A stretch of DNA of 32,545 nucleotides, from the NCBI RefSeq assembly GCF_000801955.1, contig NZ_JSZO01000023.1:1-32545 (forward strand). Reading direction: 5' to 3'. How positions within the stretch are numbered: the stretch's first letter is position 1; every line of letters begins with the position of its first letter. A program made the translations under genes and the position numbers. The notes under the pieces are model-generated. The model saw only the letters and a list, made by a program, of their open reading frames with translations. It did not search any database and was not told the origin of the DNA. Source of the DNA: Ralstonia sp. A12. GTDB lineage: Bacteria; Pseudomonadota; Gammaproteobacteria; Burkholderiales; Burkholderiaceae. Positions 101-30,020 of the stretch are shown piece by piece.

Positions 101-2269
<2,169 letters not shown>

Positions 2270-2292
2270 GGTTAATCCTCAGATTCGTCAAC

Positions 2293-2319
2293 GGGGCGCC
2301 GCCGGATAGCAAGCGCCCC
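2293..2319 (-). other. Stem-loop in the rpsG-fusA spacer
   Basis: A 7-bp GC-only stem (2293-2299 with 2313-2319, 13-base loop) lies 24 bases before the fusA start codon. No T-run follows, so it is unlikely to terminate transcription. It may influence fusA translation or mRNA processing. The rest of this 114-base spacer shows only the fusA ribosome binding site. Confidence 0.3.
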
Positions 2320-2383
2320 TAATACAAATGGGCGAGATGTGCGCACACAGCCCGCCCAGCAACCAACAACGTGCGTGAGTCGC

Positions 2384-2854
2384 TTAGAAGCGGAAGTGCG
2401 AGAACGCCTTGTTGGCTTCCGCCATACGGTGCACTTCATCGCGCTTCTTCATGGCGCCGCCGCGGCCTTCCGAGGCCTCGAGCAGTTCACCAGCCAGACG
2501 CAGGGCCATCGACTTCTCGCTGCGCTTCTTCGCAGCTTCCCGCAGCCAACGCATCGCCAATGCCAGACGACGCGACGGCCGGACTTCGACCGGCACCTGA
2601 TAGTTGGCGCCACCAACACGGCGGCTCTTCACTTCGACCACCGGCTTGATATTGCCGATTGCCAGCGTGAACACCTCGATAGGCGCCTTGCCTGCTTTCT
2701 TCTCGATCTGGTCGAACGCACCGTAGACGATACGCTCAGCCACCGACTTCTTGCCGTCCAGCATCAGGACGTTCATGAACTTGGCGACTTCCACATTGCC
2801 GAACTTCGGGTCCGGCAGAATTTCCCGCTTGGGGACTTCACGACGACGTGGCAT
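2384..2854 (-). CDS. rpsG: 30S ribosomal protein S7
   Basis: Primary 16S rRNA-binding protein that nucleates assembly of the 30S head and contacts the E-site tRNA. The 156-aa product begins M-P-R-R-R-E-V and has the conserved S7 core ([30 protein letters not shown]), with normal length for proteobacteria. The start is ATG with an AAGGA sequence just upstream. In E. coli S7 represses its own operon by binding the rpsL-rpsG spacer. Here that spacer is 186 bases and contains a strong hairpin close to the start codon, so similar feedback is plausible but not shown. Confidence 0.98.
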
Positions 2855-2877
2855 CTTCTTTCCTTCTCTGTTCAGTT

Positions 2878-2896
2878 GAGAACCGCTTCGGTTCTC
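2878..2896 (-). promoter_or_regulatory. 8-bp hairpin before rpsG, possible S7 feedback site
   Basis: Positions 2878-2885 and 2889-2896 pair perfectly with a 3-base loop, 23 bases before the rpsG start and next to its ribosome binding site. The rpsL-rpsG spacer is where S7 binds mRNA in E. coli, so this is a candidate part of the translational operator. I did not recognise the E. coli S7 site itself. The remainder of the 186-base spacer (2855-3040) holds no gene that I can see. Confidence 0.4.
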
Positions 2897-3040
2897 CGGC
2901 CACCAACTAGCTTGTCTTCCAACAATCTGAGCCGGGTGACCACTTACTCGACGGTGCCAGTGCGGTCAAAAAACGCACCGTTGTACCGCCTGCTCATGAC
3001 AAGACCGTGACCGCAAACGCGGGCCGATCTCACTGACAAC

Positions 3041-3418
3041 TTAGGCCTTCTTCGGGCGCTTCGCGCCGTACTTCGAACGCGCTTGCTTACGGTCCTTGAC
3101 GCCTTGCAGGTCAAGGGAGCCGCGCACGATGTGGTAACGCACACCCGGCAAATCCTTCACACGGCCGCCGCGGATCAGCACGACGCTGTGTTCTTGCAGG
3201 TTGTGGCCTTCACCGCCGATGTACGAAATGACTTCGAAACCGTTGGTCAGGCGCACCTTGGCGACCTTACGCAGTGCCGAGTTCGGCTTCTTCGGCGTCG
3301 TGGTGTACACGCGGGTGCACACGCCGCGACGCTGCGGGCAGTTCTCAAGCGCCGGGCTCTTGCTCTTCAGCTTTTCAGAGACGCGGGGCTTGCGAACCAA
3401 TTGATTGATAGTTGGCAT
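3041..3418 (-). CDS. rpsL: 30S ribosomal protein S12
   Basis: Decoding-centre protein of the 30S subunit and first gene of the str operon. The 125-aa product has the hallmark [10 protein letters not shown] and [13 protein letters not shown] segments. Lysines 43 and 88 (counting Met), whose substitutions commonly give streptomycin resistance or dependence, are both the usual lysine, so the allele looks wild type. The start ATG gives M-P-T-I-N-Q; the ribosome binding site is weak (a GGA about 10 bases upstream). It is preceded by a leader of about 230 bases with a folded element and by a good sigma70-type promoter. Confidence 0.99.
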
Positions 3419-3441
3419 TGTTCAATCCAGCTTGGTTTTTG

Positions 3442-3493
3442 AAAAATCGCCGGGCCACATGACGTGGCAGCCTCACAAGTGAGGCAATCGGCG
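3442..3493 (-). promoter_or_regulatory. Folded rpsL leader: three-way junction followed by U5
   Basis: In the minus-strand RNA a closing stem (3489-3493 with 3448-3452) encloses two perfect hairpins: a 7-bp one at 3470-3485 (GCCTCACTTGTGAGGC) and a 5-bp one at 3454-3468. The closing stem is followed after one A by five U residues (3446-3442), 23 bases before the rpsL start. The shape could be an attenuator or a protein-responsive leader of the str operon. The structure is seen; the function is inferred. With the promoter and hairpin entries this covers the 296-base gap 3419-3714; no gene is visible there. Confidence 0.5.
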
Positions 3494-3652
3494 CAATCGG
3501 GTTTTGGAAGTGGCGAGCAGAACGCTCTAGAGGGAGGACCTGCGGGAACAGATCAAGACCAAAGAGCGCGAGCCCGTCTGGTTCAGATGCCTTGCACAGC
3601 GCTTTGCCGGGCATGGACGTGCGAAGCCAGAAGCCAAAAACTCGAATCTGGC

Positions 3653-3681
3653 ACTATAGCGGGGTGTTTTGCAAGCGTCAA
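3653..3681 (-). promoter_or_regulatory. Sigma70-type promoter of the str operon
   Basis: On the minus strand there is a -35 TTGACG (3681-3676), exactly 17 bases, and a -10 TATAGT (3658-3653). This is the best sigma70 consensus match I found in the window. Transcription would start near 3646 and give an rpsL leader of about 228 bases. The -35 box directly abuts the hairpin that follows the upstream MFS gene. Confidence 0.78.
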
Positions 3682-3706
3682 GCGCGCCACCAGTCTGGCG
3701 GCGCGC
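3682..3706 (-). terminator. GC-rich hairpin after the MFS gene
   Basis: A 25-nt inverted repeat begins 9 bases after the MFS transporter stop and forms about 10 bp on the minus strand, including one G-U pair that exists only in the minus-strand RNA. No proper U-run follows; the next bases are the -35 box of the str promoter. It probably limits read-through into the str operon, but as an intrinsic terminator it is imperfect. Confidence 0.45.
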
Positions 3707-3714
3707 GATGCAAG

Positions 3715-4971
3715 TCAGCAGCCACGCGGTGTGGCGCCGATGGCACGCAGGGCTGGGTTGGGCCGGAGGAAGACGAGTGCCGCAGCCACCACAAACCCGA
3801 GCGCGAGGACAGAAACGCCGACCCAGCCCGCACGTGCCCAGGCCACCCCGGCCAGTCCGCCGCCGGCTGCCGCGCCAAAGAAGAACGCCCCCGTGTACAG
3901 GCCATTCACGCGACCGCGAATCTCCGGTGACAGCGTGTTGACCATATAGCGACCGAGCGCCTGGTCGCCGATGGCACCGAAGTCCAGCAGCAGCGCGGCC
4001 ACCACCAGCATCGCCAGCATGACGGGCACGCTCAGGCCGGGCACCAGCGCCGAGGCCAGCGCCAGCAGCAACCCCGTCGCAGCACTGCCATGCGCGAGCA
4101 GCGTCCCCAGGCGTACCAGGCCACGGTCTGCCAAGCGCCCGGCCACCGGGGCTGCGACCACGCCCGCCGCGCCGCACAGCGCGAAGATGCCGATGCCGTT
4201 CTGCGACAAATGGAACGGCGCCGCCGCCAAGCGCAGCGCCACCGCCGTCCAGAACAGCGTAAATGCAGCCATCAGCAAAGCTTGCGTGGCAGCGCGGCGG
4301 CGCAACAACGGCTCGCTGCGCAGCAGTCGCCCGTACGAGCCCAGCAGCGCGCCATACGAATGTGCGCGCGGTGGCACGAAGGTCGGCATCACGCGCGGCA
4401 GGACGATCGCCAGCGCGCCGATCGCCACCGCAGAGGCGCCGTAGAACGCCCGCCAGCCCCACTGCGCCGCAATCAGGCTGGCCGCCGGGCGCGACAGCAG
4501 AATACCCAGGTTCAGGCCGATCATGATGTCGCCGAGCACGCGCCCGCGCCGATGGTCGCCCGCCAGGCGCCCGGCTAGTGCGATCAGCATCTGAATAACG
4601 GTCGACGTGAGTCCGATGGCGAATGCGGCCAGCATCAGCACCTGCCCGCTGTGTGCCACAGTGGTCAACGCCAACGACGCCACCGCACCCCACAGCGTGC
4701 GCGAGGCCAGCGTGCGGTTGTCCTGCAGGTCGGTCATCGGCATCAGCAGCAACAGGCCGATGCCGTAACCGATGAGCGTGGCGGTCACCAGCAACCCGGT
4801 GGTGGCCGTGGTCCAGCCGATGCTGGCGGCGATCTCGGCGATGAGCGGCTGGATGCCGAACAGGTTGACGACGATGAGCCCGACCGCGGCCGCGAACAAC
4901 GGCGTCGCGCCGCGCGGCAAGCGATCTGCAGGGGGATGAGACACAGCAACGGTAGGGGCTTCGGTAGTCAT
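3715..4971 (-). CDS. MFS transporter, probable drug or metabolite efflux
   Basis: Predicted 418-aa inner-membrane protein with about a dozen hydrophobic segments, starting M-T-T-E-A-P. The first membrane segment is near residues 25-45 and a typical MFS loop (GRLADRG) lies in the second half; the ending RPNPALRAIG is hydrophilic. A longer in-frame reading to 5349 exists but would run through the divergent lysR gene, so I placed the start at ATG 4971. No Shine-Dalgarno sequence is visible there. It is divergent from a LysR-type regulator across 100 bases, the classic arrangement for a transporter controlled by its neighbour. The substrate cannot be told from sequence. Confidence 0.9.
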   Translation of the reverse strand: MTTEAPTVAVSHPPADRLPRGATPLFAAAVGLIVVNLFGIQPLIAEIAASIGWTTATTGLLVTATLIGYGIGLLLLMPMTDLQDNRTLASRTLWGAVASLALTTVAHSGQVLMLAAFAIGLTSTVIQMLIALAGRLAGDHRRGRVLGDIMIGLNLGILLSRPAASLIAAQWGWRAFYGASAVAIGALAIVLPRVMPTFVPPRAHSYGALLGSYGRLLRSEPLLRRRAATQALLMAAFTLFWTAVALRLAAAPFHLSQNGIGIFALCGAAGVVAAPVAGRLADRGLVRLGTLLAHGSAATGLLLALASALVPGLSVPVMLAMLVVAALLLDFGAIGDQALGRYMVNTLSPEIRGRVNGLYTGAFFFGAAAGGGLAGVAWARAGWVGVSVLALGFVVAAALVFLRPNPALRAIGATPRGC

Positions 4972-5073
4972 GATGACGAGGAAGGAGGGTCGTGACGCCC
5001 CATCGTAGCCAGCCGATTCGCGCAGATTAAGGTAGCCTCTGGCGCCATATTGTTTCCAGAAGCGCGCAAATAT
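4972..5073. promoter_or_regulatory. Divergent control region between MFS gene and lysR
   Basis: The 100-base space between two divergent starts must carry both promoters. An imperfect dyad, ATATTG at 5047-5052 and CAAATAT at 5067-5073, overlaps the lysR start codon and includes a TTG-N14-CAA element, which suits a LysR autoregulatory site. For the MFS gene a weak TTAATC-N17-TACGAT can be read on the minus strand. Neither promoter is convincing by eye. Confidence 0.35.
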
Positions 5074-5991
5074 GGACCGACTCTCCGACGTGGTGATCTT
5101 TGTGCGGGTGGTGGAGTGCGGCAGCCTGTCGGCCGCTTCCGATGCGATGGGCGTCTCGCGCGGTGTGATCAGTAAGGCGCTGGCGCGATTGGAGGCGCGG
5201 CTGGGCACGCGTCTGCTGCAGCGGACGACGCGGCGCCTATCCCTGACCGAAGCCGGCGCAGCCTTCTTCGAGAAAAGCCGCGAAGGTCTGGCGCTGATGG
5301 ACGCTGCCGAACAGGCCGTGACCGCCCTGCGCGACGAGGCGCGCGGCACACTGCGGGTGTCGGCGCCAGCGTCGTTTGCTGTGACGTTGCTAGCGCCGCT
5401 GCTCGGGGCGTTCCAGGCACGCTACCCGGCCGTGCAGATCGACCTGGACATGAACGACCGTTACGCAGATCTGGTGGCGGGCCGCATCGACGTCGCCATC
5501 CGCATCGGCATGCTGGAGGATTCATCGCTGGTGGCACGGCGGCTGGCAAACTGCGCGCACGCCATCTACGGCGCGCCGTCGTATTTCCGCGAGCGCGGCA
5601 TTCCACGATCACCGGATGATTTGTGCGACCACAACTGCCTCGTCTACGCCAACTACGACGGACCGCACGACTGGGTGCTGACCGATTCCGCCGGCCAGCG
5701 CCACATCGCACACGTGAACGGCTCGATGTTGGCCAACAACAGCCTCGTGTTGCGCGAAGCAGCACGTGCAGGGTTGGGGGTATCGCTGGGGCCGGCGTAT
5801 CTGGTGCGCGAGGACATCGCCGCCGGCCGGCTGCAGGCGGTGCTGACGGACTACGCGGCGCGCGAAGTCCCGCTACACGCCGTATTCACGCAGCGTGTGC
5901 ACCTGCTGCCGAAGGTGCGTGCGTTTGTTGATTTTCTGGGCGACCACCTGACACGCACCGGTGTCATGGGGCCACTGCCGGTGGCGGCCGC

Positions 5992-5995
<4 letters not shown>
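5072..5995 (+). CDS. LysR-family transcriptional regulator
   Basis: A 307-aa DNA-binding regulator. Residues 1-60 form the winged helix-turn-helix ([20 protein letters not shown], then [24 protein letters not shown]), followed by a linker helix and a periplasmic-binding-protein-like effector domain from about residue 90 ([12 protein letters not shown]) to 295. The segment [19 protein letters not shown] is typical of the CrgA/DsdC-like branch. It is the only plus-strand gene in the window and is divergent from the MFS gene, its likely target. Its stop overlaps the recQ stop by four bases. Effector and target remain inferred. Confidence 0.95.
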
Positions 5996-7905
<1,910 letters not shown>

Positions 7906-7954
7906 CGGGACGGCGGGTGCACGTGGTGTCACGCGCGGGCTGGGCGAAACCGCT

Positions 7955-7985
7955 ATTGTGACAAACCCCGTCCGTCGATGGTCAA
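7955..7985 (-). promoter_or_regulatory. Possible recQ promoter
   Basis: The minus strand reads TTGACC (7985-7980), 19 bases, then CACAAT (7960-7955) directly preceded by TGT, an extended -10 element. The spacer is longer than ideal. Transcription would begin just before the candidate recQ start codons. This is the only plausible promoter in the 113-base space between the methyltransferase and recQ. Confidence 0.3.
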
Positions 7986-8018
7986 TCAGGGAAATCGGAT
8001 TGTGCCCAGAGCAGGTTC

Positions 8019-8609
8019 TCAGACCTTGCGCACGACGATGCGGTGAATCGTCTTGCCCGACGACTGGCTGACAGCGGCCTCGTCGAAAACAATGTTGGTG
8101 CCGGCCAGTGCTTCGTACACGGGTGCGGCCTCGAATGCGGTAAACAGCCGGCCGCGGCCATCGCGCTGATCGGCATCGGACGTGACGCGCCAGCTCAAGT
8201 ACAGCGTGCCGCCCGCGCGCAGCAGCGACACCAGCCGCTGCACCGCCGCACCGATCTGCTCGGGCGGCAGATGCATGATGACAGTCTCGCAGACCACGTT
8301 GTCGAAGGCGCCGTCGGCAATGCCCACCAGTTCCGGCAGCGGTGCCCGCCGGAACGACAGCCCCGGATACTGCGTGCGCGCCGCCTCCAGCAGCCCGGCC
8401 GAAGCGTCATAGCCGACCGCCGGATAGCCGTTGGCATTGAGCCACGCCACCTCGCGCCCGGCGCCGCAACCGATGTCCGCCGTGGCCCCGCCCGCCTTGA
8501 ACTCGCGCCGCAGCAGCGCGTACATGTCTTCCGGCGCAGGCTGCTCGCGCCACTCCTGCGCGAAGGTCTCGGCGAGGGTGTCGTAGGCGGCAACGGTCTG
8601 CGTGTCCAT
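8019..8609 (-). CDS. Class I SAM-dependent methyltransferase
   Basis: A 196-aa Rossmann-fold methyltransferase. Motif I is [10 protein letters not shown] (about 44-53), the acidic SAM-ribose residue is D68 (VGYDAS), and the later segments [14 protein letters not shown] and [12 protein letters not shown] match the post-I motifs of the Methyltransf_11/25 type. The start ATG 8609 has AGGAG about 10 bases upstream. It lies 26 bases after the second DUF2135 gene, so it is probably co-transcribed with the macroglobulin operon. There is no signal peptide, so it is cytoplasmic and may be functionally unrelated. The substrate is unknown. Confidence 0.93.
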
Positions 8610-8635
8610 GGCGGCGGGCTCCTGAGTCTCGGTTC

Positions 8636-9484
8636 CTATTTCATCGTGAAACTACGCAACAGCGTCAGATCGCCGGCCTTGCGCATCGGGACCACGAACG
8701 TTTGCTGGCGCTCGGATGGCGTGTTCTCGTCGGTGATGATGCTGACGGTGGCTGTGGTGATGACGCTGTTGTCGCTGCCGCTACCGTAGTAGTTCACGTA
8801 GACAAGGTACGTGCCGGGCACGGGTGCCGGGTTCGAATAGATCTCGGGGCCGTAGCCGGTGGTGACGTCCACGTCGAGTGCGCCGCCGTTTTCGACCACG
8901 CGGTTGCCGTACCAGGCGTGCTGGCCGTCGGGCGATATGACGTGCAGGTCGAGGTCGGTGCCGTCGGTATCCCACGACAGCACCACGCGCAGGCGTGGGC
9001 GCTGCTTGCCAGCGTAACTGTCGTAGAACTGTACGCGCTTGGCATCGCCGCGTGCGCTGCGCACTTCGACGCTGTTGCTGCCGGCGCCAAACGCGTACGG
9101 GCGCGAGAACGTGCCGTCGGCTTCGATGCGCTGCGGCATCGCCACACCATTGACGACCAGCGTGCCGACTGACGAGCCATCCGCCCCACGGCGGCGGCGC
9201 GGCTTGTTCTCATCCGTGGGGGCGGCGGCCTTGGGCTGGTTGCGGATGCGCCCGGCAATCATCGAGGCCGTGCCCTGCCCTTGCGGTGTGCTGACCGACA
9301 CGGCCGGATAGTGCACGTCCTGCGTGTAGCGCGAATCGTCGCCGGCCGAGTTGCGCCAGCCGTTGAGCGGCGCGGTGATCTCGATATTGCCGGTATCGGT
9401 TTGCGCAACAACAGCACCCGACGCCCCAAGCGAGGCGAGTGCGATGGCGAATGCGAGGCGGAATGTGGATTGCGTCATGAGCAT
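8636..9484 (-). CDS. DUF2135 (YfaP-like) secreted protein, copy 2
   Basis: A 282-aa exported protein of the YfaP/DUF2135 family. Residues 1-28 are a signal peptide ending VVAQ. The N-terminal part has the I..PLNGWRNS and SMIAGRIR motifs shared with copy 1. The C-terminal DUF2135 part contains LSWDTDGTDLDLHVISPDG, GPEIYSNPAPVPGTYLVYVNYYG and ENTPSERQQ. The acidic DTDGTDLDLH segment looks able to bind a metal, which is an inference. The start ATG overlaps the stop of copy 1 by one base (TGATG), implying translational coupling; an ATG two codons later is an alternative. It has a Lys/Arg-rich insert near residue 95 (PRRRRGADG) that copy 1 lacks. Confidence 0.9.
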   Translation of the reverse strand: MLMTQSTFRLAFAIALASLGASGAVVAQTDTGNIEITAPLNGWRNSAGDDSRYTQDVHYPAVSVSTPQGQGTASMIAGRIRNQPKAAAPTDENKPRRRRGADGSSVGTLVVNGVAMPQRIEADGTFSRPYAFGAGSNSVEVRSARGDAKRVQFYDSYAGKQRPRLRVVLSWDTDGTDLDLHVISPDGQHAWYGNRVVENGGALDVDVTTGYGPEIYSNPAPVPGTYLVYVNYYGSGSDNSVITTATVSIITDENTPSERQQTFVVPMRKAGDLTLLRSFTMK

Positions 9485-10293
9485 CAGAAGCGGATCGATT
9501 TCATCAACGCCAGCTCGCCGATCTTGCGCAGCGGCACGCTGACGAACTCGCGCCGCTCGTTGGGCGTGTTCTCGTTATAGATCAGCGTCAGTTGCGCGGT
9601 GATGAGATCGCGGTCGTGCGCCTTTTCATCAAAGTTGTAGCCGCCGGCGTCGAAGTTGCCCCAGTAGTTCACGTAGAACAACCAGACGCCGGGGCGCGGC
9701 GCGGCGGTGGAGAAAATCTCGGGGCCGGCGCCGTCGACGCTGTCCACGTCGAGCCCGCCGCCGTCAGAGAGCAGCGGCTGGGCGAAGAACGCGTGATCGC
9801 CAATCGGCGAGATGACGTGCATGTCGACCTCGGCACGTGGGTCGTCCCAGGTGAGGATGGCGCGCAGCTTGGCGGAGGTCTTGGTGGTGTCGGCCTCGTA
9901 GAACTGCAGGCGCTGGCGCGACTGGCCATCGGGGCTGACGATCTCGACGCTGTTCGAGCCCGGGCCGAACGCCCAGGGGCGTGCGAAGCGGCCTTCGCTG
10001 TCGCCGTACAGCGGCATGGCGTTGCCGTTGACGATCAGCACCGGCGGGCGGCGCTGCTTGCCGACCGCGCGAATGCGTCCGGCAATGAGCGTGCGGTACT
10101 TCTGCGCACCACGGTCCACCGGCGGTTTCGGATACGCAGCGGTATAGCGCTCCAGCTCGTTGGTCAGCTTGCTGTTGCGCCAGCCGCCGATCGGGCCTTC
10201 CAGATCGACCACCGGCTCGGCGACGGCCGAGGCACCAAGCAGCAAGGCCGCGGCGCCGATCATCATCCGCGTTGTCCATGCCTTCGTGTTCAC
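9484..10293 (-). CDS. yfaP: DUF2135 (YfaP-like) secreted protein, copy 1
   Basis: A 269-aa exported protein of the DUF2135 family, homologous to E. coli YfaP and to a small component of the P. aeruginosa mag operon. A signal peptide ends ASAVA (about residue 25). The conserved features are GPIGGWRNS, LIAGRIR, GPGSNSVEI, LTWDDPRAEVDMHVISPIG, GPEIFSTAAPRPGVWLFYVNYWG and ENTPNER. The start is GTG, overlapping the DUF2300 stop in GTGA and preceded by a strong GGGGAGGG site. Compared with copy 2 it has an extra loop (GGYNFDEKAHDRD) in the C-terminal domain. Its biochemical role is not established; in the mag system small partners sit with the macroglobulin at the inner membrane. Confidence 0.9.
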   Translation of the reverse strand: MNTKAWTTRMMIGAAALLLGASAVAEPVVDLEGPIGGWRNSKLTNELERYTAAYPKPPVDRGAQKYRTLIAGRIRAVGKQRRPPVLIVNGNAMPLYGDSEGRFARPWAFGPGSNSVEIVSPDGQSRQRLQFYEADTTKTSAKLRAILTWDDPRAEVDMHVISPIGDHAFFAQPLLSDGGGLDVDSVDGAGPEIFSTAAPRPGVWLFYVNYWGNFDAGGYNFDEKAHDRDLITAQLTLIYNENTPNERREFVSVPLRKIGELALMKSIRF

Positions 10294-12041
10294 AGCAAGC
10301 CCTCCCCTCGAATCAGGCGGCGCGCTGTCGCCTCAACAAACTGTTCGTCCTGCCCGAGCGGGTGGTGCGCAAAGGCCAGATGCAGATATTCGTGTGTCAG
10401 CGCGATGCGGTCTTCCTCGCTGGCGAGCCGATGGATGTAGAGCCGGTTGCGGCGCGCATCGGCATACGGGCGGCCTTCGTGCACCACGCACACGGCGGGC
10501 AGCGGCGGCGTCTCGTAGCCGGGCTCGGCGCCCAGACGCGCAGACCAGCGCGGCGCCTGCGCCTGCAGCCACTGCTGCGCGCCTGCCACCGGTGAGCAAT
10601 CGCCCGCCACCGGACTCTGGAACGAGGTGAGCGTTGCCTGCGGCCACCATTGCGCGAGGATGCGGTCAAACCCCTGGCCACGCTGCGCGGCAGCGCGCGC
10701 GGCGGTCCAGCTCATCTGGCCGCGTGCGCTGATCGTGCCGTGGTACTGCACGGACTGGCCGACCAGCACGAGTGCATCGGTAAATTCCGCCGCATTGCGC
10801 GCGGCGGCGGCGGGCGGGCGCGACAGCACACGCTGCGTGCGCGAGCTGTCGGCGATGCGGTAGCAGCCCTTGTCACGCGAGGCGTGCTGCACGAGGTAGC
10901 TGCGCGCCGCCACGGCCAAGGCGCGGGCGGCTTGCGGCTCGGTCAGATTGCCTTCGCGCTCCACGACGCGCGCCACGTAGTCGTTCATGCCGAGCCGGCC
11001 GGTGATGACGGTCGCGTTGTTCTCGCGCGCCAGGGTCAGCTCGCCGCGGCTCTCGATCGGCAGCGTATTGCCGTTGACGAAGCGCACGGTGTAGCGGCCT
11101 TCCAGGCGACCGGGGCCGACCGGCTTGCTGTCGATGTCGCGCACGTCCCAGATCGGATAGCGCGCGAAGAATTCCACCGCCACACAGGCGTCGTCGTCGG
11201 GCACGGGCGTCTGCTCGATCAGCGGCGTGAGACGTGGCGCGGCGGCGGCCAGCACCTGGTTGCTGGAGCCCACGCCGCCCAGCCACACGGGCGTGCCATC
11301 GGCCAGCCAACCGGCAGCACCGCCGATCGACGCGCCGGGGCGCTGCGGGTCAGGCATGGTCCACGTCTTGGCGCGCAGCAAGCCACCGAAGTACGACACA
11401 GTGCCCTCGCCGCGCCCGACGGTCAGCACGGAGACGAGCGTTTGTGCGGCGGTCTCACGCCCATCGGCGGGCACGCTGTGCAACGCGCTCAGCAGATCGG
11501 CAACGGGGACGCGGCGCGCGGGTTGCATGGCGCGCAGGTCACGCAGCCACGTGGGTGCGTTGGCTTGCTGCCAGAAGCGGCGCCAGTCGGCGCCATCCAG
11601 GCCCAGGCGTGCCGGTTCGAAATAGCGACCGCACGATTGGATGAGCGCGCGCTCGCGGTCGATGCTCTGGCCGGCCGTGCAGCAATAGACCTCTTCGGCA
11701 TCGTTGCCGTGACACGTGTAGTCGGGCGTGTTGATGCGGCGCGAGACGAGGTAGCTGTAGACGAAGAGCTTCCAGATGCTGCCGAGCGGCGTTTCAGTGT
11801 CACGCGGCAAAGCGGTGGCTTGCGGCATGCCACCGGCTGCGCTGGTGACGGTGCTGGCGCTGAACTGCCAGAGCTTGGCATCGTCGCCCTGCAAGGCGGC
11901 AAATCGTAACTGCGGCAGTTGCGGCGACGGCGCAGCAACAGGTACGGCAACGGCGTGCCCCGAATGCCCAACGAGCGCGAGTGCGCCGCCGGCCCAGATC
12001 AGGCCGGTCAGCACGCCGCGCGCAAGCAGGCTGGAGCGCAT
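10290..12041 (-). CDS. yfaQ: DUF2300 (YfaQ-like) envelope protein with PBP-like, SpoIID-like and HExxH modules
   Basis: A 583-aa exported protein; the signal or anchor segment is residues 1-32. I chose ATG 12041 because GGAG lies at the end of the preceding gene and the signal peptide follows at once. Three modules are visible. Residues 80-260 resemble a penicillin-binding or serine beta-lactamase fold: SxxK at S88-I-W-K91, SCG at 136-138 in the SxN position, and K-T-W where KTG is expected. The middle part resembles SpoIID (GMNDYVARVV, then ARALAVAARSYLVQHA and CYRIADSSRTQ). The C-terminus has HEYLH at 550-554 with Glu566/570 downstream, a gluzincin-type zinc site. The family is annotated only as unknown function; activity on peptidoglycan is my inference. 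The SxN and KTG changes may mean a binding rather than catalytic role. Confidence 0.88.
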   Translation of the reverse strand: MRSSLLARGVLTGLIWAGGALALVGHSGHAVAVPVAAPSPQLPQLRFAALQGDDAKLWQFSASTVTSAAGGMPQATALPRDTETPLGSIWKLFVYSYLVSRRINTPDYTCHGNDAEEVYCCTAGQSIDRERALIQSCGRYFEPARLGLDGADWRRFWQQANAPTWLRDLRAMQPARRVPVADLLSALHSVPADGRETAAQTLVSVLTVGRGEGTVSYFGGLLRAKTWTMPDPQRPGASIGGAAGWLADGTPVWLGGVGSSNQVLAAAAPRLTPLIEQTPVPDDDACVAVEFFARYPIWDVRDIDSKPVGPGRLEGRYTVRFVNGNTLPIESRGELTLARENNATVITGRLGMNDYVARVVEREGNLTEPQAARALAVAARSYLVQHASRDKGCYRIADSSRTQRVLSRPPAAAARNAAEFTDALVLVGQSVQYHGTISARGQMSWTAARAAAQRGQGFDRILAQWWPQATLTSFQSPVAGDCSPVAGAQQWLQAQAPRWSARLGAEPGYETPPLPAVCVVHEGRPYADARRNRLYIHRLASEEDRIALTHEYLHLAFAHHPLGQDEQFVEATARRLIRGEGLL

Positions 12042-12048
12042 TGCCGCT

Positions 12049-15000
12049 TCACTCCACCTTGTACGGAAAGCTGGCCGTCTTGCCGTCGCCCTGGAGCGCC
12101 TTGGCTTCCGGCTGATACATGCGGAAGTAGCGCACAGGCGGCAGCGCAAAGCGACCCGGCAACGAGAAGCGCACGAGTTGGCGCAGCACGGTCGGCCGCT
12201 CCAGCGCCGGTACCGGCTGGTTATACGAGAGCTGACCCATTTCGTAGGCCGCCTTGCGCTCGAACGGCTGCGGGCCATTGCCTTCGTTCGGCTCGCCCTT
12301 CAGGCCGTCGATCTGGATGCCCCAGGTGGTGGCTTCCACCTCGGCGCCCGGCGGCAGCGGTACTTCAACCAGGCCATAGCGGAACGTGCCCTGACGCGGT
12401 GTCAGCACCACCTCGTCGACATACAACGCGTTGCTGTCGAGCGTGTCGCCCGGCTTGACCGGCTTGGCCGTGAAGGCGATGCCGCTGCTGTTGGCGTCGG
12501 CCGCCGGCTGCTTGGGCGCCTTCGGGTCCGGCTTGGCCGGCGTGGAGTCGATCGGCTCCAGGCGGTACAGCTTGCGCTCCACCGTGATCGGCAGCTTGGA
12601 CACTTCCGGCGCACGGCTGCGGTAGGACACGATGGCCGATTGCGTCGTCACGTCGGTCGGTGCGGTCGTCAGGTCGAGCGCGGCGGGCACCTGCGCGCCA
12701 CTCCAGCGCCACGTCGGCACACCCACCGGCGAGCGAGCCGCCTGCCAGCCACCCGCCGACACCGTCGGCTGGATAGCAGCAACGCTCGCGCCTTGCAGAC
12801 CACCCAGGCCCTTCTGCAGCCAGACCAGCGCGATGGCGCGATCCATCGTCGGCATGGCGGCACTGGCGCGTGCCAGCAGCGGCGCCGGGTCAGCAGCCGA
12901 ACGGCCACCGCCCATCAGCAACAGGCTCTGCACCAGCGGCGAGTTGTCTGCCGCCAGCGCATTGCGTGCAGCGATGTCAGCCGAGACTAGCGCTTCGGGC
13001 ACCGGCTGACCAATCTGGCGCATCAGTTGCGCCGTCAGCACCGTTGCCACCTGGCGACCACGCGGGGAATCCGGCGCGACGAAGATCAGGCTGTCGCCCG
13101 CGGCGGGCTCAGCGTCGGCCGGGGCCTTGGCGTTGCGTGCGAGTTCGTTCGCTACGCCCGACAGCGGCGTTGCCACCGGCAGGCCCATCTCGTTGGCAAA
13201 CCACAGCGCCAACGCGCGGTGCAGCAGCGGCTCGTTCTGGCTGGTGCGCTTGTAGGCTTCGAGCACCTGCTTCCAGTTATCTGCCGGCAGGCTGATGCCG
13301 ACCGAGCGGCTGGCGAGCCAATCCGCGTAGTACGCATACGACGTGATGAGCGCGCTGCTGGTCGTCAGCTCACCCCACCAGCCGAAGGTGCCGTTGGTGC
13401 CGGCCAGCAGTGCCAGACGCTGACGCTGCGTGCGCAGTAGCGCATCGACGCCTTGCGTGCCGGCCGGGCCGCTATCTCCCGTACTGCCCAGGCGGGCGCC
13501 CGTGGCGGCAAGGCTCTGCTGGGCGAGTGCCAGCGGAATCAGGCGGCTGGCGGTCTGCTCGGCGCAACCGTACGGGTACTCGATCAGGTCATCGGCCACG
13601 CGGGCGAACTGGCTGGCCGTGTTGCCAACCACGCGCAGACGCACGTCGCGCGCATCGGCAGGCAGGCCCAGCGGCAGGCGCGTGCCTTGCAGCTGCGTGA
13701 GCGGGACGACGTTTTCGCGGTCCGCCAGCCAGCCGGTGGCATCCAGCTTGAGGGTGGTCTGCAGGCGGTCCGACACGGCATCGCCCTGCTTCAGCTCGGC
13801 ATTGATGACACCCGCCTGCAAGGCAGTGACCGGCGCGCGCAGATAGTTGGCACCGCGCTTGAGCGTCACGCGCTGGTTGATGTTCAGGCCGGCGCCCGAG
13901 ACGATCCAGTCGGCGGTGATGTCCTTGTCGGTCTGGTTGAAGGCGACCATGTCCAGGCGCGGCTGATCGCTTTCGCGGAAGCGCTGTGGGCCGGTCCACT
14001 TCAGATACAGCGGCTTGTCGGAGCGGATGTTGGCCGTGCGCTGACCGACGATGCCATCCGATGCGCCCGTGGTCGACACTGCACGCACCGTGATGCGCCA
14101 ACGCGCCAGCGAATCGGGCATCTTGAACGTCATGCGCGCGCGGCCATCCGCATCGGTCTGCAGGTTGGCAACCCACGCAGCAGTGTCCTGCTCGTCACGA
14201 CGCGGGCGCTCCAGCACCTTCACGCCGCGCTCGTTATGACGGCCGTAGGTGCCGCCCGGCTTGCCCGGCAACGAAGCGAGCGCCAGGTCGTAGCTGATGA
14301 AGCTCTGGCTCGACGTGGTGCGCACGCTGTTGCGGCGCGGGTGGTAGAAGAAATCGACGATGCTGGGTGCCACTTCGGGCTGCAGCACGTAGATCATCTC
14401 GTCGACCACGGACACGGTCAGATTGGCCGGCACCGGCTTGCCCGCCAGCGCGCTGGTCAGGTCCAGCGTGACGGTCTCGCCCGGGGCGTAGACGGCCTTG
14501 CCAGCGTGCACGCTCAGATCCAGCGTCGGCTGCGTAACGACGATGCCGGCGTTCTGGAACACCATGTCGCCATCGCGCACGTAGAGCACCGAGAACGTCA
14601 TGTTCGGGGCGAACTCCGCACCGATCTTGATGCGTGCACGGTACTGCGTGGGCGTGACTTTCTTCAGGCTGAGCCACTCGCCGCCGCGGGTGAGCAGCGC
14701 GTGGCGCTCGACCTTGTCACGCTCCAGCGTGAGCAGTGCGTCGTCCACCGGCAGCGGGAAGGTGATCAGCGCCTCGGCCGTGTCACCAATCTGGTAACGG
14801 TCGCGGTCGAACACCATTTCGATGTTGCCGGGCACAGTCTGCACGCCATCGCCGGCCACCCAGTGGCTCGATGCGGCAAGCAGGTTGCCGGCAGCATCAC
14901 GCACCGACAGCGTGTAGGAGCCCGGTTGGTCGAACTTGACCGGGAAAGTCGCGTTGCCCTTGGCATCCGGAGCCACCGTACCTTCGGTGCGGGTACGCGT

Positions 15001-16839
15001 CTCCAGGCGCACCAGATCCCACTTGGCAGGCGGCGCGCTTGCACCGGCCCCACCGCTTGCACCACCCACGACCGGCATCGGCGTCAGGTTGAACGACACG
15101 TCCTGGCCCGGCGTCGTGAAGTTCGACGTGGTCGACAGCTTGTACGGCGTGGCGCCACGTGCGATCAGCAGCTCACGCGTGACCTTCACGCGGTAGGCCG
15201 CGCCGTCGTTGGCGAACACGGTCACCACGTAACGACTCGGCTCCTTGGCCGCAGGCAGGTCCAGCTTGGCGTTGCCGTCGCCGTCGGTGGTCAGTTCCTG
15301 CTGCTCCAGCTTGACGGGGAACAGGCCGGCGTAGCGCAACTCGCCCTCCACCATCGTCACCTGCTGTGCGCGCAGGCTGACCGACACCTTGCCGTTCTTG
15401 ACCGGCTTGCCGTCCGGATAGCGCAGGCTGATCTTGCCCTTGACCGCTTCGCCCGTGCCATAGCTGGCCTTGTCCAGCGACAGGTTCACGTCAAAGTGCG
15501 GCTTGATGTATTCCGCCACACGGAAGGCGCCGCCATACGTGCCGCCGTTGTAGTCGAAGCGCAGCGAGTAGCCGCCGGCCGGTGCGTTGGACGGCAGCGT
15601 GAAGCGCGCGTCAGCGCCGCTATCTCCAGCCTGGCCAGCCAGGCGCGTAGTGGACGTGGCCACCGGCGCGCCGTTCGGGTCGAGCACCTGCAGCTTGATG
15701 TCGCCGGCAGCCGGCACGGTCGATTCGGTAGCGTTCTTGAAGTTGCGGCCGATGAACTTGACGCGCACTTCATCGCCTGGGCGATAGAGCGGGCGATCGG
15801 TGAAGGCGTACAGCTTGGTGTTGTAGATCTCGCTGTCGTAATAGAAATTCTCGGAGATGAACACGCCGCCCGCGCGATCGTTGCCGATCACGTAGCTGCG
15901 CTCCGGCGAGACATGGCGCAGGTCAGCCGTGCCATCGCTATCGGTGGTGCCAGACGCGAGCACGCCAACGCCGTCGGTCCAGCTTACGGACGAGCCGCTC
16001 ACCGGCTTGCCGCTCTTGCGCTCGGCGGTCCAGACCATCATCCCTTGGGACGTGCCCTTGGTGACGGCCACGGTGTCCGACACGAACAGCAGCGTGTGCG
16101 CGCGGTACGCACCAATCACCGCTTCCACGATGTACAAACCCGCCGGCAGCTTGCCCACCGGGATCATCACGTTGCCGACGTTCTGTGGCATCCATTCGCT
16201 GCTGCTGCCCTCCAGCTTGACGTCCTTGGGCGGCGCGATCGGCTTGGCATCCCAGATCGGGTAACGGAAGCGACCGAGCAGCTCATAGCCCTTGAGCGGC
16301 GCGTACTGCGGGTTGTTCGAGAAGCGCGTGGGTGCCGTCATCTGGTCGCCCATGCTGAACTGCGGCGCGGTCTCCACGGCCTTGCTGCGCGTGGCGAACG
16401 ACAGCACGCGCTGCCATGTGCGGCGGGCCTGGCGCGTCCAGTTGTCCCACAGATACGCGAGCGTGTTGGCCAAGCCTTCGCCCGTGTAGTTCGCCTTCAC
16501 GTCGATGCGGTGCAGGTTCTTCTGCGCCTTCAGGAACTCAAGCGGCTGCGCCACACGGTAGACGAGGATGTCGGCGCCGCCATAGCGGGAGAGCTCGTCC
16601 TTGTATTCACGGCCCGGCGCCTCCAGGCGGACCATCGCTTCCTGGTCGGTGCCGTAGCTGGCGTCCGAGAGCAGGAAGAATGGCTGGCCCTTGATCGGCT
16701 CATAGCCGCTGGGGGGCGCGTCGGCGAAGGTGGGGTTCGGCTTTTCGGGTGCGTCGGCCGCATGAGCGTGGCCCACAAACGCCAGCACCGTCAGGCAGAC
16801 GGCAGCGACCAGATTGAACGAATGCCAACGGTTGCGCAT
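12049..16839 (-). CDS. yfaS: Bacterial alpha-2-macroglobulin (YfaS/MagD type) with CxEQ thioester motif
   Basis: A 1596-aa periplasmic macroglobulin. Residues 1-27 are a signal peptide (ends GHAHA) without a lipobox at the cleavage site, so it is not an obvious lipoprotein. The TDRPLYRPGDEV segment marks the A2M N-terminal MG domains; several more beta-sandwich repeats follow, then the A2M family core (RRDEQDTAAW, DSLARWRITVRAVS) and the thioester domain with YPYGC1092-A-E-Q1095. Family knowledge: such proteins trap or bind proteases, and P. aeruginosa MagD binds neutrophil elastase and sits in an inner-membrane complex with Mag partners. I chose ATG 16839, eight bases after the DUF1175 stop, because a longer reading to 16929 would put 30 residues before the signal peptide. 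The ribosome binding site is weak, suggesting coupling. Confidence 0.95.
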   Translation of the reverse strand: MRNRWHSFNLVAAVCLTVLAFVGHAHAADAPEKPNPTFADAPPSGYEPIKGQPFFLLSDASYGTDQEAMVRLEAPGREYKDELSRYGGADILVYRVAQPLEFLKAQKNLHRIDVKANYTGEGLANTLAYLWDNWTRQARRTWQRVLSFATRSKAVETAPQFSMGDQMTAPTRFSNNPQYAPLKGYELLGRFRYPIWDAKPIAPPKDVKLEGSSSEWMPQNVGNVMIPVGKLPAGLYIVEAVIGAYRAHTLLFVSDTVAVTKGTSQGMMVWTAERKSGKPVSGSSVSWTDGVGVLASGTTDSDGTADLRHVSPERSYVIGNDRAGGVFISENFYYDSEIYNTKLYAFTDRPLYRPGDEVRVKFIGRNFKNATESTVPAAGDIKLQVLDPNGAPVATSTTRLAGQAGDSGADARFTLPSNAPAGGYSLRFDYNGGTYGGAFRVAEYIKPHFDVNLSLDKASYGTGEAVKGKISLRYPDGKPVKNGKVSVSLRAQQVTMVEGELRYAGLFPVKLEQQELTTDGDGNAKLDLPAAKEPSRYVVTVFANDGAAYRVKVTRELLIARGATPYKLSTTSNFTTPGQDVSFNLTPMPVVGGASGGAGASAPPAKWDLVRLETRTRTEGTVAPDAKGNATFPVKFDQPGSYTLSVRDAAGNLLAASSHWVAGDGVQTVPGNIEMVFDRDRYQIGDTAEALITFPLPVDDALLTLERDKVERHALLTRGGEWLSLKKVTPTQYRARIKIGAEFAPNMTFSVLYVRDGDMVFQNAGIVVTQPTLDLSVHAGKAVYAPGETVTLDLTSALAGKPVPANLTVSVVDEMIYVLQPEVAPSIVDFFYHPRRNSVRTTSSQSFISYDLALASLPGKPGGTYGRHNERGVKVLERPRRDEQDTAAWVANLQTDADGRARMTFKMPDSLARWRITVRAVSTTGASDGIVGQRTANIRSDKPLYLKWTGPQRFRESDQPRLDMVAFNQTDKDITADWIVSGAGLNINQRVTLKRGANYLRAPVTALQAGVINAELKQGDAVSDRLQTTLKLDATGWLADRENVVPLTQLQGTRLPLGLPADARDVRLRVVGNTASQFARVADDLIEYPYGCAEQTASRLIPLALAQQSLAATGARLGSTGDSGPAGTQGVDALLRTQRQRLALLAGTNGTFGWWGELTTSSALITSYAYYADWLASRSVGISLPADNWKQVLEAYKRTSQNEPLLHRALALWFANEMGLPVATPLSGVANELARNAKAPADAEPAAGDSLIFVAPDSPRGRQVATVLTAQLMRQIGQPVPEALVSADIAARNALAADNSPLVQSLLLMGGGRSAADPAPLLARASAAMPTMDRAIALVWLQKGLGGLQGASVAAIQPTVSAGGWQAARSPVGVPTWRWSGAQVPAALDLTTAPTDVTTQSAIVSYRSRAPEVSKLPITVERKLYRLEPIDSTPAKPDPKAPKQPAADANSSGIAFTAKPVKPGDTLDSNALYVDEVVLTPRQGTFRYGLVEVPLPPGAEVEATTWGIQIDGLKGEPNEGNGPQPFERKAAYEMGQLSYNQPVPALERPTVLRQLVRFSLPGRFALPPVRYFRMYQPEAKALQGDGKTASFPYKVE

Positions 16840-16847
16840 GAGTTTTT

Positions 16848-17552
16848 CTACCGTGTCAAAAAGGCCAGACGAAACACGCCGATGAAGTTGGGATTGCCGC
16901 CCTGCGGCTGCCAGCGCGAGTCTTTCCATTGCATCAATTCAGAGACCGGGACCGCGCGCAGACCGTTGTCGGTGCGGGTGACGGTGCCGGTGTGGTAAGC
17001 GATGTAGCGATCCATCCAGATCATCAGATGCTGGTCGTCGCCTTGATCGAAGAAGAGCAGATCGCCCGGGAGCGCCTGGTTGACGTCCTTGGCAATGAAG
17101 CGGCTGTTCTGCTGGATGAGCCCGAGCGCAGAGACATACGCGCCGGTGCTGCCATCAATGCGTGCCCAACGCTGCGTGAGCGTGCGCTGGGCGGGCGTAA
17201 GGTTCAGCTCGGGCGGCAGTTGCCGCGCGGATTCCGCATCGCGCATGCCGTTGGCGCGCAGCCAGCGGGGGTCGTGCGGGCGCAAGGCCTCGCCGGCGGC
17301 GAAACGCACGAGGCCGGCGCAGTCACGGTGCGTCCAGCGCGGCGTCGGCCCCTGGCGCAGCTGCTCGTTGACGATGCGTACGAACCAAGCGCGGAACACG
17401 CTCGATTGATCCGGCGTGAGCGCGTCGAGGTCTGCCGGTGCGGCGTCCGCCCAGCCGGACAACGCGTGCGCATACGGAGCGAGCAGACAGCCGCCGGCTG
17501 CCGCCAACCAGCGGCGACGGCTCAGCACGGCGGCCGAGGCGCGCGGTGTCAT
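16848..17552 (-). CDS. yfaT: DUF1175 (YfaT-like) protein, probable NlpC/P60-type cysteine hydrolase, Tat-like signal
   Basis: A 234-aa exported protein. The N-terminus [11 protein letters not shown] (11-21) followed by a hydrophobic stretch and AHA (28-30) fits a twin-arginine signal peptide. The mature part carries RDC78AGLVRF, then [15 protein letters not shown]175LMIWMD, then AYH187TG. This is the layout of NlpC/P60 peptidases: Cys in D-C-S/A-G-L, His after the PGDL.FF strand, and a third polar residue. These enzymes usually cut peptide bonds in peptidoglycan stems. The start ATG overlaps the DUF2138 stop (ATGA). DUF1175 is formally of unknown function; the hydrolase call is from motifs and was not tested by alignment. 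Confidence 0.9.
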
Positions 17553-19417
17553 TGCGTGCTGGCGTTGTCAGCAGGAACAGGCGCCGCCGCCTCGGTGGCA
17601 GGCGCATCGGCAGGCGCCGCCGACGGGGCCGACGCCGCGGCCGTGTCTGCCGGCGCAGGCGGCGTACCGTCGCCGCCGGCCGGCAGACCGTGCCCGCTCG
17701 ACAGCCACGTCACCGGCACCCAGCCACGCGACGACGGCACACCGCCATCCAGCGCCAGCGACACCGGCGCATACCGCGCCAGCGCCTTGAGCTTCGGGAA
17801 CAGGTGTGTCTGTGCAGCGTTCAGGAACACGGCTTCCTGGTCGGCGGGCAGCGCAGCACCGGCTTCGCGGCGCACGAGCGGCGCGAGCGATGCAGGCGTC
17901 ATCGTCAGGACGATGCGTTCGGTCTTGTCCTTCGGCAAGCTGTCAGCCACCGCAGGGAACCGCTTGGCGAGCACGGCCAGCGCATCGTCAACGAGGCGCG
18001 CGTCCGGCGAAAACACCACCACGTCGCCCGCAATCGCCAGCGTGACCGGAAAGTAACGCTCCCACGACAACTGCGCCCCAAACGGTGCCTCGGCCGATTT
18101 CGCGGTGCCGTAGCGTGCGCTCACCGGGCGCTGCCACAGCGTGGCGTTGGCCGGGCCCTGGCGTGTCGTCACCGGCAGGCGCTTGTACGGGCCGGACTTG
18201 TCATCCGCCTGTGCCTTGGATTCATATGAGCCGATGATCTGGCCGAACAACGCAGCCAACGCTGGCTTGACCGCTTCAGCCTGCGAGGCCGACGACAGCT
18301 TCGCCACGAACAGCGGCGCCACCAGCGATGACTTGCCGTACCAGCACGCCGCAGCCGGGCCAGCAAAGGCGTCGCCGACATGCGCGGCGGCTTCGCTGAC
18401 TTCCTTGGCGTCGCCAGCCACGTTACGCAACAGTGCGCCGGCGGCCTTCCAGTCAACAGGTAGTGTGGCGCAAGCGGCCGGGTCAGACGGCAGCGCGCGC
18501 CACAGGCCAGCGTTGTCCCACTTGGCCGAAAGGTGGCTCGGGTCAATGAGCGCGGCACTCTGCCAGCCATTGCCCCCGCCGTCACCCTTGCCCGAACCAA
18601 AGTCGAAGCGCAACGCCTCGATGCCCGGGAAGTACTGCTGATAGCCGAACGACAGATAGTTGGCGCTCACCACAACGTGATGGCCCGTCGGCTCTTGTGC
18701 GGGCAGCGCGTACGCCGTGCCTTGCGCGTTGCGCTTGCCAGTGTCATCCGACAGCAGCGCGGCCAGCGCGCTCGCCTGCTTGGAAATCGGCTTGCCGTCC
18801 TTGTCCAGCAGGATGCCCGGCTCGGACAGCGCGATCAGCCGGTCGCCCTTGCTGGCGATCAGGATCGAGCGCGTGGCCGAGAGCCGCAACGCATAGACCG
18901 GCGCGCCGGAATCGCCCAGCGCATCGGCCACCTTGGTGAGCTGCGTATCGCTTGTGGCCACGGTGGCGACGGCTTCCAGCGCTTTCGCCAAGCCGTTGCG
19001 CTGCATCGAGAGCACCCAATAGCGCAGCTTGTCGTCCGGGCCTCGCCACAGCATCACGCGGGCGGGCTCGTCAAACACATGCTTGAGCACCGTCTCGGCC
19101 AGGTCGAGCTTCTGCTCGTACGCAAGGCGACGCAGCGCGCCGGCCACCGAGAGGCGGTCTTCGTTGCCCTCGTAGTAGGCGACGAAATCTTCGGTCAGCA
19201 CATCGCGCAGCAGCGGCACGCGCAGCACGTCGCGCGGCAGTTGCGACAGGCTCTGGCTGTCGATCAAGGCATCGGGGTAAGTCAAGTCGAGCTGGACCTG
19301 ACGGGCGTGCAGCGCGCGCGTGCGACTGAACGGGTGCCAGACCATCTGCACCACCGCCGCGCCGGCAACGACCAGGGCGACCGCGCCAACGGCGATCTGC
19401 TTGCGTGTGAGCTTCAT
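17549..19417 (-). CDS. yfaA: DUF2138 (YfaA-like) membrane-anchored protein
   Basis: First gene of the macroglobulin operon; 622 aa. Residues 1-6 are basic and 8-26 form one hydrophobic segment without a clear cleavage site, so it is probably anchored in the inner membrane with a large periplasmic domain. Recognisable DUF2138 features include [17 protein letters not shown] near the start, [19 protein letters not shown], and [29 protein letters not shown] cut by variable parts. The last 45 residues are an Ala/Pro-rich, probably disordered tail. No function is known; in P. aeruginosa Mag partners hold the macroglobulin at the membrane, so a scaffold role is a reasonable inference. No Shine-Dalgarno is seen before ATG 19417; the purine-rich GGAGG there is on the opposite strand. 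Confidence 0.88.
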
Positions 19418-19459
19418 GGAGGAATCTGCGGCAAGGCTGGAGAGGGCCGGCAGATTGAA

Positions 19460-19582
19460 ACAACCGGCTCACGATCCGTCGCGAGCGGCCCGAGGTTGGC
19501 CTGAGAAGCGCAGCTGTACACGGGTACAGCGAGCATCGCAGGGCCAAGATCGGGCCGCGCAGCAGGATCGTGAGCCGGTTGT
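19460..19582. repeat. 123-nt nested inverted repeat before the macroglobulin operon
   Basis: The outer arms are 18 bases each and perfectly complementary (19460-19477 with 19565-19582). Inside are further matching arms: 8 bp (19485-19492 with 19551-19558), 8 bp with one bulged G (19496-19503 with 19539-19547), and a 7-bp tip hairpin (19513-19519 with 19524-19530, loop ACGG). About 41 base pairs form in 123 nt. No G-U pairs favour either strand and no T-run follows. It occupies most of the 353-base gap 19418-19770 together with the rpoC terminator. It could be an extragenic palindromic element or a leader RNA of the operon. A TATGAT at 19614-19609 on the minus strand lacks a good -35. Confidence 0.75.
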
Positions 19583-19709
19583 AAAAAGTGCCGGTCTATA
19601 ACCGCGTGATCATAGCCGTTGCGATGTTAAGGCAGGTTAACGTTTCGAGAAAATCAGAGCACGCTGAGGCCGGCGTCTACCCAGTTGTTGTTTGCGCGAC
19701 ATGCAGGCG

Positions 19710-19770: not shown

Positions 19771-24006
<4,236 letters not shown>

Positions 24007-24030
24007 TCCAAACTCCTTGAGTTTGAGGCT

Positions 24031-24055
24031 GGCGCCTTAGGACTGCTAAGGCACC
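24031..24055 (-). other. Hairpin 1 in the rpoB-rpoC spacer
   Basis: A 10-bp stem (24031-24040 with 24046-24055, 5-base loop) lies just before the rpoC ribosome binding site. One pair is G-U in the minus-strand RNA and a mismatch in the plus-strand RNA, which suggests the fold matters in the transcript. It may be an mRNA processing or stability element. No T-run follows. Confidence 0.45.
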
Positions 24056-24097
24056 GGCCCTAAATCTTCGTCAATGGGCTGCTACTGCTGTTACCAA

Positions 24098-24133
24098 GGC
24101 GTGGCAGGTTGGGACAACCCGTGCCGCCACGCC
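24098..24133 (-). other. Hairpin 2 in the rpoB-rpoC spacer
   Basis: Arms of 8 bases (24098-24105 with 24126-24133) enclose a further small stem (GGTTG/CAACC). It lies 16 bases past the rpoB stop on the minus strand. There is no U-tract, so termination is unlikely; an end-protecting or processing structure is the simplest reading. Confidence 0.4.
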
Positions 24134-24149
24134 CTCACCGCTTCGGCGC

Positions 24150-28256
<4,107 letters not shown>

Positions 28257-30003: not shown

Positions 30004-30020
30004 CGAATGATCGAGAACGA

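Follow-up and report, generated by a model that had tools for sequence, protein, structure and literature searches.

The closest described relatives of the operon reported here are magABCDEF of Pseudomonas aeruginosa, whose alpha-macroglobulin MagD is reported in a 2013 mBio abstract to bind elastase, and yfaA-yfaT-yfaS-yfaQ-yfaP of Escherichia coli. A further point of comparison is the YfhM-type (Type I) macroglobulin, encoded beside the penicillin-binding protein (PBP) PBP1C. We analysed a stretch of 32,545 nucleotides from Ralstonia sp. A12 (contig NZ_JSZO01000023.1, positions 1 to 32,545; hereafter the window), in which six coupled minus-strand genes, spanning 8636-19417, make up a mag operon with the order MagB, MagC, MagD, MagE, MagA, MagF. 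Its macroglobulin, a protein trap related to the immune macroglobulins of humans, carries a thioester motif, and the putative active-site residues of its MagC and MagE proteins are conserved in operons with and without that motif.

MagD of P. aeruginosa is described as lacking CXEQ; it binds MagA, MagB and MagF, with which it forms a membrane-bound complex, and is cut from 165 to 100 kDa (PMC5764988). The word 'elastase' does not occur in that paper, whose text and figure legend conflict about magC. MagD protects against the wall-degrading type VI secretion system (T6SS) effector VgrG3 and weakly against Tae1, and gives no protection against TseH or B. thailandensis (PMC12663445, November 2025); magC, PA4488 and PA4490 are absent from its main text. 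In E. coli, loss of YfaQ, the MagE counterpart, leads to wider cells and groups with mepK, mepS and nlpI mutants, and YfaQ is predicted to be transpeptidase-like and SpoIID-like with a Sec signal (PMC12282094, June 2025); the main text does not mention zinc, HExxH, metallo, DUF2300, yfaS or macroglobulin. A 2021 structure paper, by its title in the reference list of PMC10318531, presents MagC as an NlpC/P60-like protein that interacts with peptidoglycan, and passages of PMC12828279 and PMC10977779 touch on the gene names or on DUF1175 in passing only.

Compared with the P. aeruginosa operon, whose macroglobulin is classed as 'Type II', the Ralstonia operon holds the same six families in the same B-C-D-E order, with a MagC very close to the orthologue 7bk8. 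It differs in that its macroglobulin has the thioester motif whereas MagD lacks it, and in that its MagA-type gene lies downstream whereas that of P. aeruginosa lies upstream of magB. Families and order are also alike in E. coli, and YfaQ has the same three modules as the Ralstonia MagE; E. coli has one DUF2135 gene rather than two, the sampled enterobacterial macroglobulins have GGV[VI]N instead of CxEQ, and yfaS is interrupted in MG1655 and BW25113. The YfhM and mag systems both encode a thioester macroglobulin beside a PBP-fold protein, but PBP1C is a full glycosyltransferase-transpeptidase, whereas the PBP-like domain of MagE has neither a canonical SxN nor a canonical KTG motif and shares its chain with a SpoIID and an HExxH module.

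The operon, the MagC fold, two of the three MagE modules and the wall role are already known. A preliminary description, made from the letters of the window, had read the members of unknown function as wall enzymes and had offered this as the possibly new part: the reading is right, and it is largely in print in separate pieces, while the interpretation combining macroglobulin and wall enzymes is, as a whole, partly supported. New as far as our searches reach are the zincin-like core and stand-alone form of MagE, the thioester history of the mag macroglobulin, and the finding that active-site residues of MagC and MagE stay the same in operons with and without the thioester; searches for the terms DUF2300 or PF10062 (one complete, the other over the best 40 of 66 results, with supplements, subscription papers and outside preprints not covered) found no paper.

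Conserved residues of MagC and MagE

The comparison covered 109 loci, made up of E. coli K-12, 28 stretches from further genomes and 80 named loci taken from a single MagC-anchored scan. The last group, the best 80 among 428, leans strongly to Paraburkholderia and Ralstonia, so that percentages are not population frequencies. Frames were found for MagC in 109 loci, for the macroglobulin in 108 and for MagE in 99, the presence of MagC being partly by construction, since it was MagC or DUF2300 that led to the loci. Of the ten loci in which no MagE frame was seen, nine are cut by a contig end (L032, L034, L064, L069, L093, L108, L116, L123 and L133), and L154 is the one real absence. In the latter (genome G1199, 7920-9815), MagB, MagC and a thioester macroglobulin are followed by an acyl-CoA synthetase-like gene instead of MagE, and the genome has no DUF2300 match. 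The B-C-D-E gene order is conserved across the compared loci, and the conservation of the operon is more than chance. Merging four near-identical macroglobulin pairs reduced the 108 to 104 distinct operons.

MagC matches the Pfam NLPC_P60 model below threshold (E 0.0013, 19.1 bits, cut-off 23). Its best match in the Protein Data Bank (PDB) is 7bk8, annotated as MagC (E 1.4e-82 by sequence, 3.5e-108 by profile), and the NlpC/P60-like fold proposed in the preliminary description holds by sequence, through this close homology to a solved MagC. Residues C78, H175 and H187, which we take to be catalytic from the motif DCAGLV, are invariant in all 104 distinct operons, including those without the thioester. 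We read this constancy as selection for catalysis, perhaps gated; it argues against an inactive protein, and it is not proof. Inspection shows a twin-arginine-type (Tat) sequence, RRRW, at the N-terminus of MagC (17480-17552), and the source records of some relatives call them Tat-signal proteins, which suggests that MagC may be exported folded.

The same description had placed a PBP-like, SpoIID-like and HExxH-bearing protein next to the macroglobulin, and all three modules were recovered in MagE. Structure prediction and fold search assigned the N-terminal domain to the PBP/serine beta-lactamase fold. Its SxxK motif is present in 52 of 52 long members and in 88 of the 88 distinct operons that cover the position; SCG and KT[WYF] stand where the canonical SxN and KTG would be, and we therefore call the domain PBP-like only. 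The S/S/K spacing known from BlaR1 and OXA enzymes served as background, with a yardstick taken from within the genome. The SpoIID match (29.4 bits, cut-off 23) recurs in 52 of 53 members at E up to 1, and E363, which we take to be catalytic from SpoIID work, is kept in all 52 long members and all 87 distinct operons covering it. In both respects, a profile above the Pfam cut-off and a catalytic-type Glu, MagE resembles the SpoIID lytic transglycosylases, from which it differs in that the module is fused between PBP-like and HExxH domains; it is a predicted lytic transglycosylase. The two DUF2300 matches fall in different modules (the PBP-like domain, and the SpoIID end plus HExxH), and we therefore rejected a functional duplication of DUF2300.

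The C-terminal module, about 105 residues long, was modelled with a predicted local distance difference test (pLDDT) value of 93 and has zincin-type folds among its neighbours; by the model it is zincin-like. Of the 95 distinct operons that have a MagE frame, 92 carry HExxH, which is all of those that cover the position (92 of 92), the three misses being a fragment (L066), a MagE split over two frames (L103) and a contig end (L121). HExxH and the downstream Glu are found together in 35 of 35 alignment rows. In six distinct operons this module is the entire MagE (41 stand-alone-type hits, of which 33 were aligned). Since it is kept in every complete MagE and also occurs alone, we regard the HExxH module as the core of the protein and the wall modules as an add-on. 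SxxK, the SpoIID Glu and HExxH are likewise kept in lineages without the thioester. The split gene of Paraburkholderia rhynchosiae WSM 3937 (L103, 14389-16163), with its HExxH part in a separate frame, is either a broken gene or a sequencing error. In PDB searches, the single MagE sequence gave a chance match only, so that a profile was required, and the C-domain profile returned 42 rows, all angiogenins (E 0.042-1.3), which we rejected as a short chance match.

Signal-type N-termini were seen by inspection in long and short MagE, and eight cysteines are conserved in all 52 or 53 rows covering them. No membrane-spanning region beyond the signal-type N-terminus was seen by eye in sequence or model, no dedicated predictor having been run. 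In domain composition MagE recalls the penicillin sensor proteases BlaR1/MecR1, in which a serine domain resembling class D lactamases is likewise combined with a domain of zinc protease type, and the two BlaR1 domains are among the MagE fold neighbours (ranks 10 and 19). MagE, however, looks secreted, contains SpoIID and has no membrane-embedded protease, so that this is a likeness and not membership.

Thioester history of the macroglobulin

The thioester motif, already read from the window's macroglobulin in the preliminary description, is GCAEQ at residues 1091-1095 and aligns, at the TED site, with CSEQ of the PBP1C-linked macroglobulin. Among the 104 distinct macroglobulins, five lack coverage of this region; of the other 99, 84 have C-x-E-Q and 15 do not (8 GGVEQ, 3 GGVVN, 2 GGVIN, 1 GSAEQ and 1 with the Cys shifted by one). 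Pseudomonas schmalbachii (L142) has CGVEQ where its relatives have GCVEQ or GGVEQ, its Cys lying one place earlier. The thioester motif is retained in the operon of Paraburkholderia xenovorans LB400 (L132).

We used FastTree to reconstruct a phylogeny of 100 sequences (the 99 plus the window), rooted it at the midpoint and mapped the motif by parsimony. The thioester is placed at the root with four changes, all losses: in the Pseudomonas-type clade, in the enterobacteria, in L030 and in L157. Loss of the thioester thus appears to be derived and to have happened repeatedly. The sequences lean to Burkholderiales and the tree has a midpoint root only; on this sampling, a thioester was most likely the starting state of the mag macroglobulin and was lost in the most-studied lineages. 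Since the MagC and MagE active-site residues are kept while the thioester is lost, selection appears to hold the enzymes and not the covalent trap.

In terms of classification, the window's macroglobulin departs from Type II as defined for MagD, which has no CXEQ. It has the CXEQ motif of Type I, but its gene does not adjoin PBP1C, which lies on contig C1 beside another macroglobulin of 2002 aa with CSEQ (L148, 4614-13005). The genome therefore combines the two macroglobulin systems, and the macroglobulins of both carry a thioester motif.

Gene layout, setting and distribution

All six genes are open frames with a single terminal stop each (Table 1), adjacent and in mag order. The overlaps noted earlier, ATGA between DUF2138 and DUF1175, GTGA between DUF2300 and the first DUF2135 gene and TGATG between the DUF2135 genes, are all present; the other two junctions are gaps of 8 nt between DUF1175 and the macroglobulin (ATG 16839) and 7 nt between the macroglobulin and DUF2300 (ATG 12041). 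For DUF2300 a mechanical list of open reading frames puts the start at 12278 rather than 12041. The MagA-type label reflects a best match, by alignment, to the DUF2135 gene upstream of magB in Pseudomonas-type loci. By inspection, MagB has an N-terminal hydrophobic helix. The DUF1175 protein is 93% identical to an R. pickettii protein cluster and 96% to Ralstonia sp. ASV6.

Table 1. Features of the mag operon and its surroundings in the window
Feature	Position	Strand	Evidence
MagB-like, DUF2138, 622 aa	17549..19417	-	Pfam PF09909 1.5e-155
MagC-like, DUF1175, NlpC/P60-like, 234 aa	16848..17552	-	PF06672 2.5e-59
MagD-like alpha-macroglobulin, 1596 aa	12049..16839	-	MG2 2.7e-21, bait region 4.5e-20, A2M 6.5e-14
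MagE-like, DUF2300 (YfaQ), 583 aa	10290..12041	-	DUF2300 7.9e-51, SpoIID 1.2e-6
MagE PBP-like domain	residues about 41-280		fold model
MagE SpoIID domain	residues about 290-475		profile and Pfam
MagE HExxH domain	residues about 476-583; 10290..10616	-	H550, E551, H554, E566, E570, C482, C518
DUF2135 protein, MagA-type, 269 aa	9484..10293	-	PF09906 8e-10
DUF2135 protein, MagF-type, 282 aa	8636..9484	-	PF09906 9.3e-17, alignment
rpoC	19771-24006		named by inspection
Methyltransferase	8019-8609		
Leader palindrome	19464-19585	-	RNA fold

PADLOC gave no match for any of the six proteins, and NCBIfam gave nothing for them beyond DUF2138 and a sub-threshold SpoIID_LytB match. In the PDB, neither sequence nor profile search found a relative of DUF2138, and the DUF2135 profile found none of worth. 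A sigma-70-like promoter site was looked for and not found.

Upstream of the operon lies rpoC, and downstream follow the methyltransferase, a RecQ-type helicase and a major facilitator superfamily (MFS) protein, then rpsG and fusA. The operon and these three genes thus sit between rpoC and rpsG/fusA (101-8609 and 19771-32545), inside the usual ribosomal-protein/RNA-polymerase block. We rejected the methyltransferase as a seventh operon gene; it accompanies the operon in only 5 of the 109 loci, all from Ralstonia or a 'Burkholderiaceae bacterium' near Ralstonia.

The leader between rpoC and magB contains a near-perfect palindrome of about 120 nt (fold -87.3 kcal/mol, z -10.25), which belongs to a dispersed repeat (23 match rows, 20 distinct genomic positions). 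Seven other Ralstonia-type loci have no such palindrome in their leaders, so that its presence here looks like the result of a recent insertion. In three of the 20 copies (L186, L187 and L188, among L170-L188 and window 19455-19595) the arm flanking the core has a sequence with no relation to the arms of the remaining copies, and it still pairs within the copy, which indicates that the pairing, not the letters, is kept.

The spread of DUF1175 is patchy. A draw from the phylum contained it in 16 of 397 genomes, one from the class in 2 of 370 and one from the order in 9 of 250; the order of G062 (Pseudomonas-like by its operon) gave 5 of 195 genomes, and the class to which G045 belongs gave 5 of 30. 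DUF2300 was found in 30 of 249 genomes of the family. These draws overlap. DUF1175 and the macroglobulin bait domain both match in the control genome of Thermotoga maritima, far outside Pseudomonadota, where a distant mag-like operon is possible.

A possible wall-linked trap

The reading that we tentatively prefer, and hold to be close to evenly balanced, is that a mag operon with an intact thioester encodes a wall-linked periplasmic trap plus wall-directed enzymes. MagB would be the inner-membrane anchor, MagD the periplasmic macroglobulin trap, and MagA and MagF its DUF2135 partners. Next to the trap, MagC and MagE would work on damaged peptidoglycan or sense it, and the HExxH module of MagE might help to process the macroglobulin, so that trapping would be readied where the wall is attacked. 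The recurrence of the operon across the 109 loci, the fold and motifs of MagE and the kept active-site residues are consistent with this, as are the published protection by MagD against VgrG3 and Tae1, the altered MagD of a magE deletion, and the grouping of a yfaQ deletion with wall mutants.

Several published observations weigh against this reading or its last step. In the relevant passages of PMC5764988 no stable MagD complex with MagC or MagE is found, the 165 to 100 kDa cut is tied to MagB, and loss of the 100 kDa form without MagE is not stated. In a 2023 survey, DUF1175 is classed as an inactive domain that binds peptidoglycan (PMC10318531). In E. coli MG1655, yfaS is annotated as a pseudogene (L003, 7799-12403), likewise in BW25113 with an internal stop (L201), and yfaQ is intact beside it. 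Since yfaS is interrupted, the yfaQ knock-out phenotypes in K-12 are read without a whole macroglobulin, and MagE therefore has a task without one. Strain H15 has an unflagged yfaS copy, and yfaS DNA is present in 5335 of 5426 complete E. coli genomes. Taken alone, processing of the macroglobulin by the HExxH module has evidence on both sides: six distinct operons have an HExxH-only MagE, which makes a protease-like module what the macroglobulin operon always carries, and the task of MagE without a whole macroglobulin leads us to consider this step doubtful and to keep a wall-only role as the main rival.

Under that rival, a real possibility though on the unlikely side, MagC and all MagE modules act on peptidoglycan, through transpeptidase-like, lytic transglycosylase, stem-peptide metallo-peptidase and NlpC/P60 activities, and the macroglobulin takes part in that defence as a neighbour without being their substrate; this comes close to the wall repair of the preliminary description and to the 2025 YfaQ paper. 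It would account for the wide, wall- and envelope-grouped yfaQ mutant in a strain with interrupted yfaS, for the lack of a stable MagD-MagE or MagD-MagC complex and for the conserved catalytic-type residues of both wall modules, but not readily for the six distinct operons that have the HExxH module and neither wall module, nor for the reduced MagD and extra higher-mass forms that follow magE removal in P. aeruginosa (PMC5764988).

It is also conceivable, if improbable, that MagE is a secreted, BlaR1-like sensor of wall damage, whose PBP-like and SpoIID modules would detect peptidoglycan damage and in response activate a minimal zincin, by which the neighbouring thioester macroglobulin would be cut and armed. 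If true, this would amount to a complement-like cascade in the periplasm, and stand-alone MagE lineages would run the protease without the sensor. Quite improbable, in our view, is that MagC and MagE are non-catalytic anchors or scaffolds holding the macroglobulin at peptidoglycan: the 'inactive' label of the 2023 survey and the non-canonical SxN and KTG of the PBP-like domain favour such pseudo-enzymes, against which stands the invariance, also in thioester-less lineages, of Cys-His-His (104/104), SxxK (88/88), the SpoIID Glu (87/87) and HExxH (92/92 where present). Least probable is the 2018 proposal of a cytoplasmic MagE that helps MagD export or signal-peptide removal, for which the higher-mass MagD, read by the authors as failed signal-peptide processing, and the earlier fractionation (PMC5764988) speak, and against which stand the signal-type N-termini of long and short MagE, the eight conserved cysteines, the PBP-like fold and the Sec signal predicted for YfaQ (PMC12282094).

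A wall-linked trap with its own wall-directed proteins would bear on three lines of work published apart, namely the interaction of MagC with the wall, the shaping of the wall by YfaQ and the guard that MagD provides against wall-degrading T6SS effectors. The thioester result suggests that the split of macroglobulins into Type I and Type II by operon context is not general, and the HExxH core of MagE offers a concrete, testable lead on why loss of MagE changes MagD.

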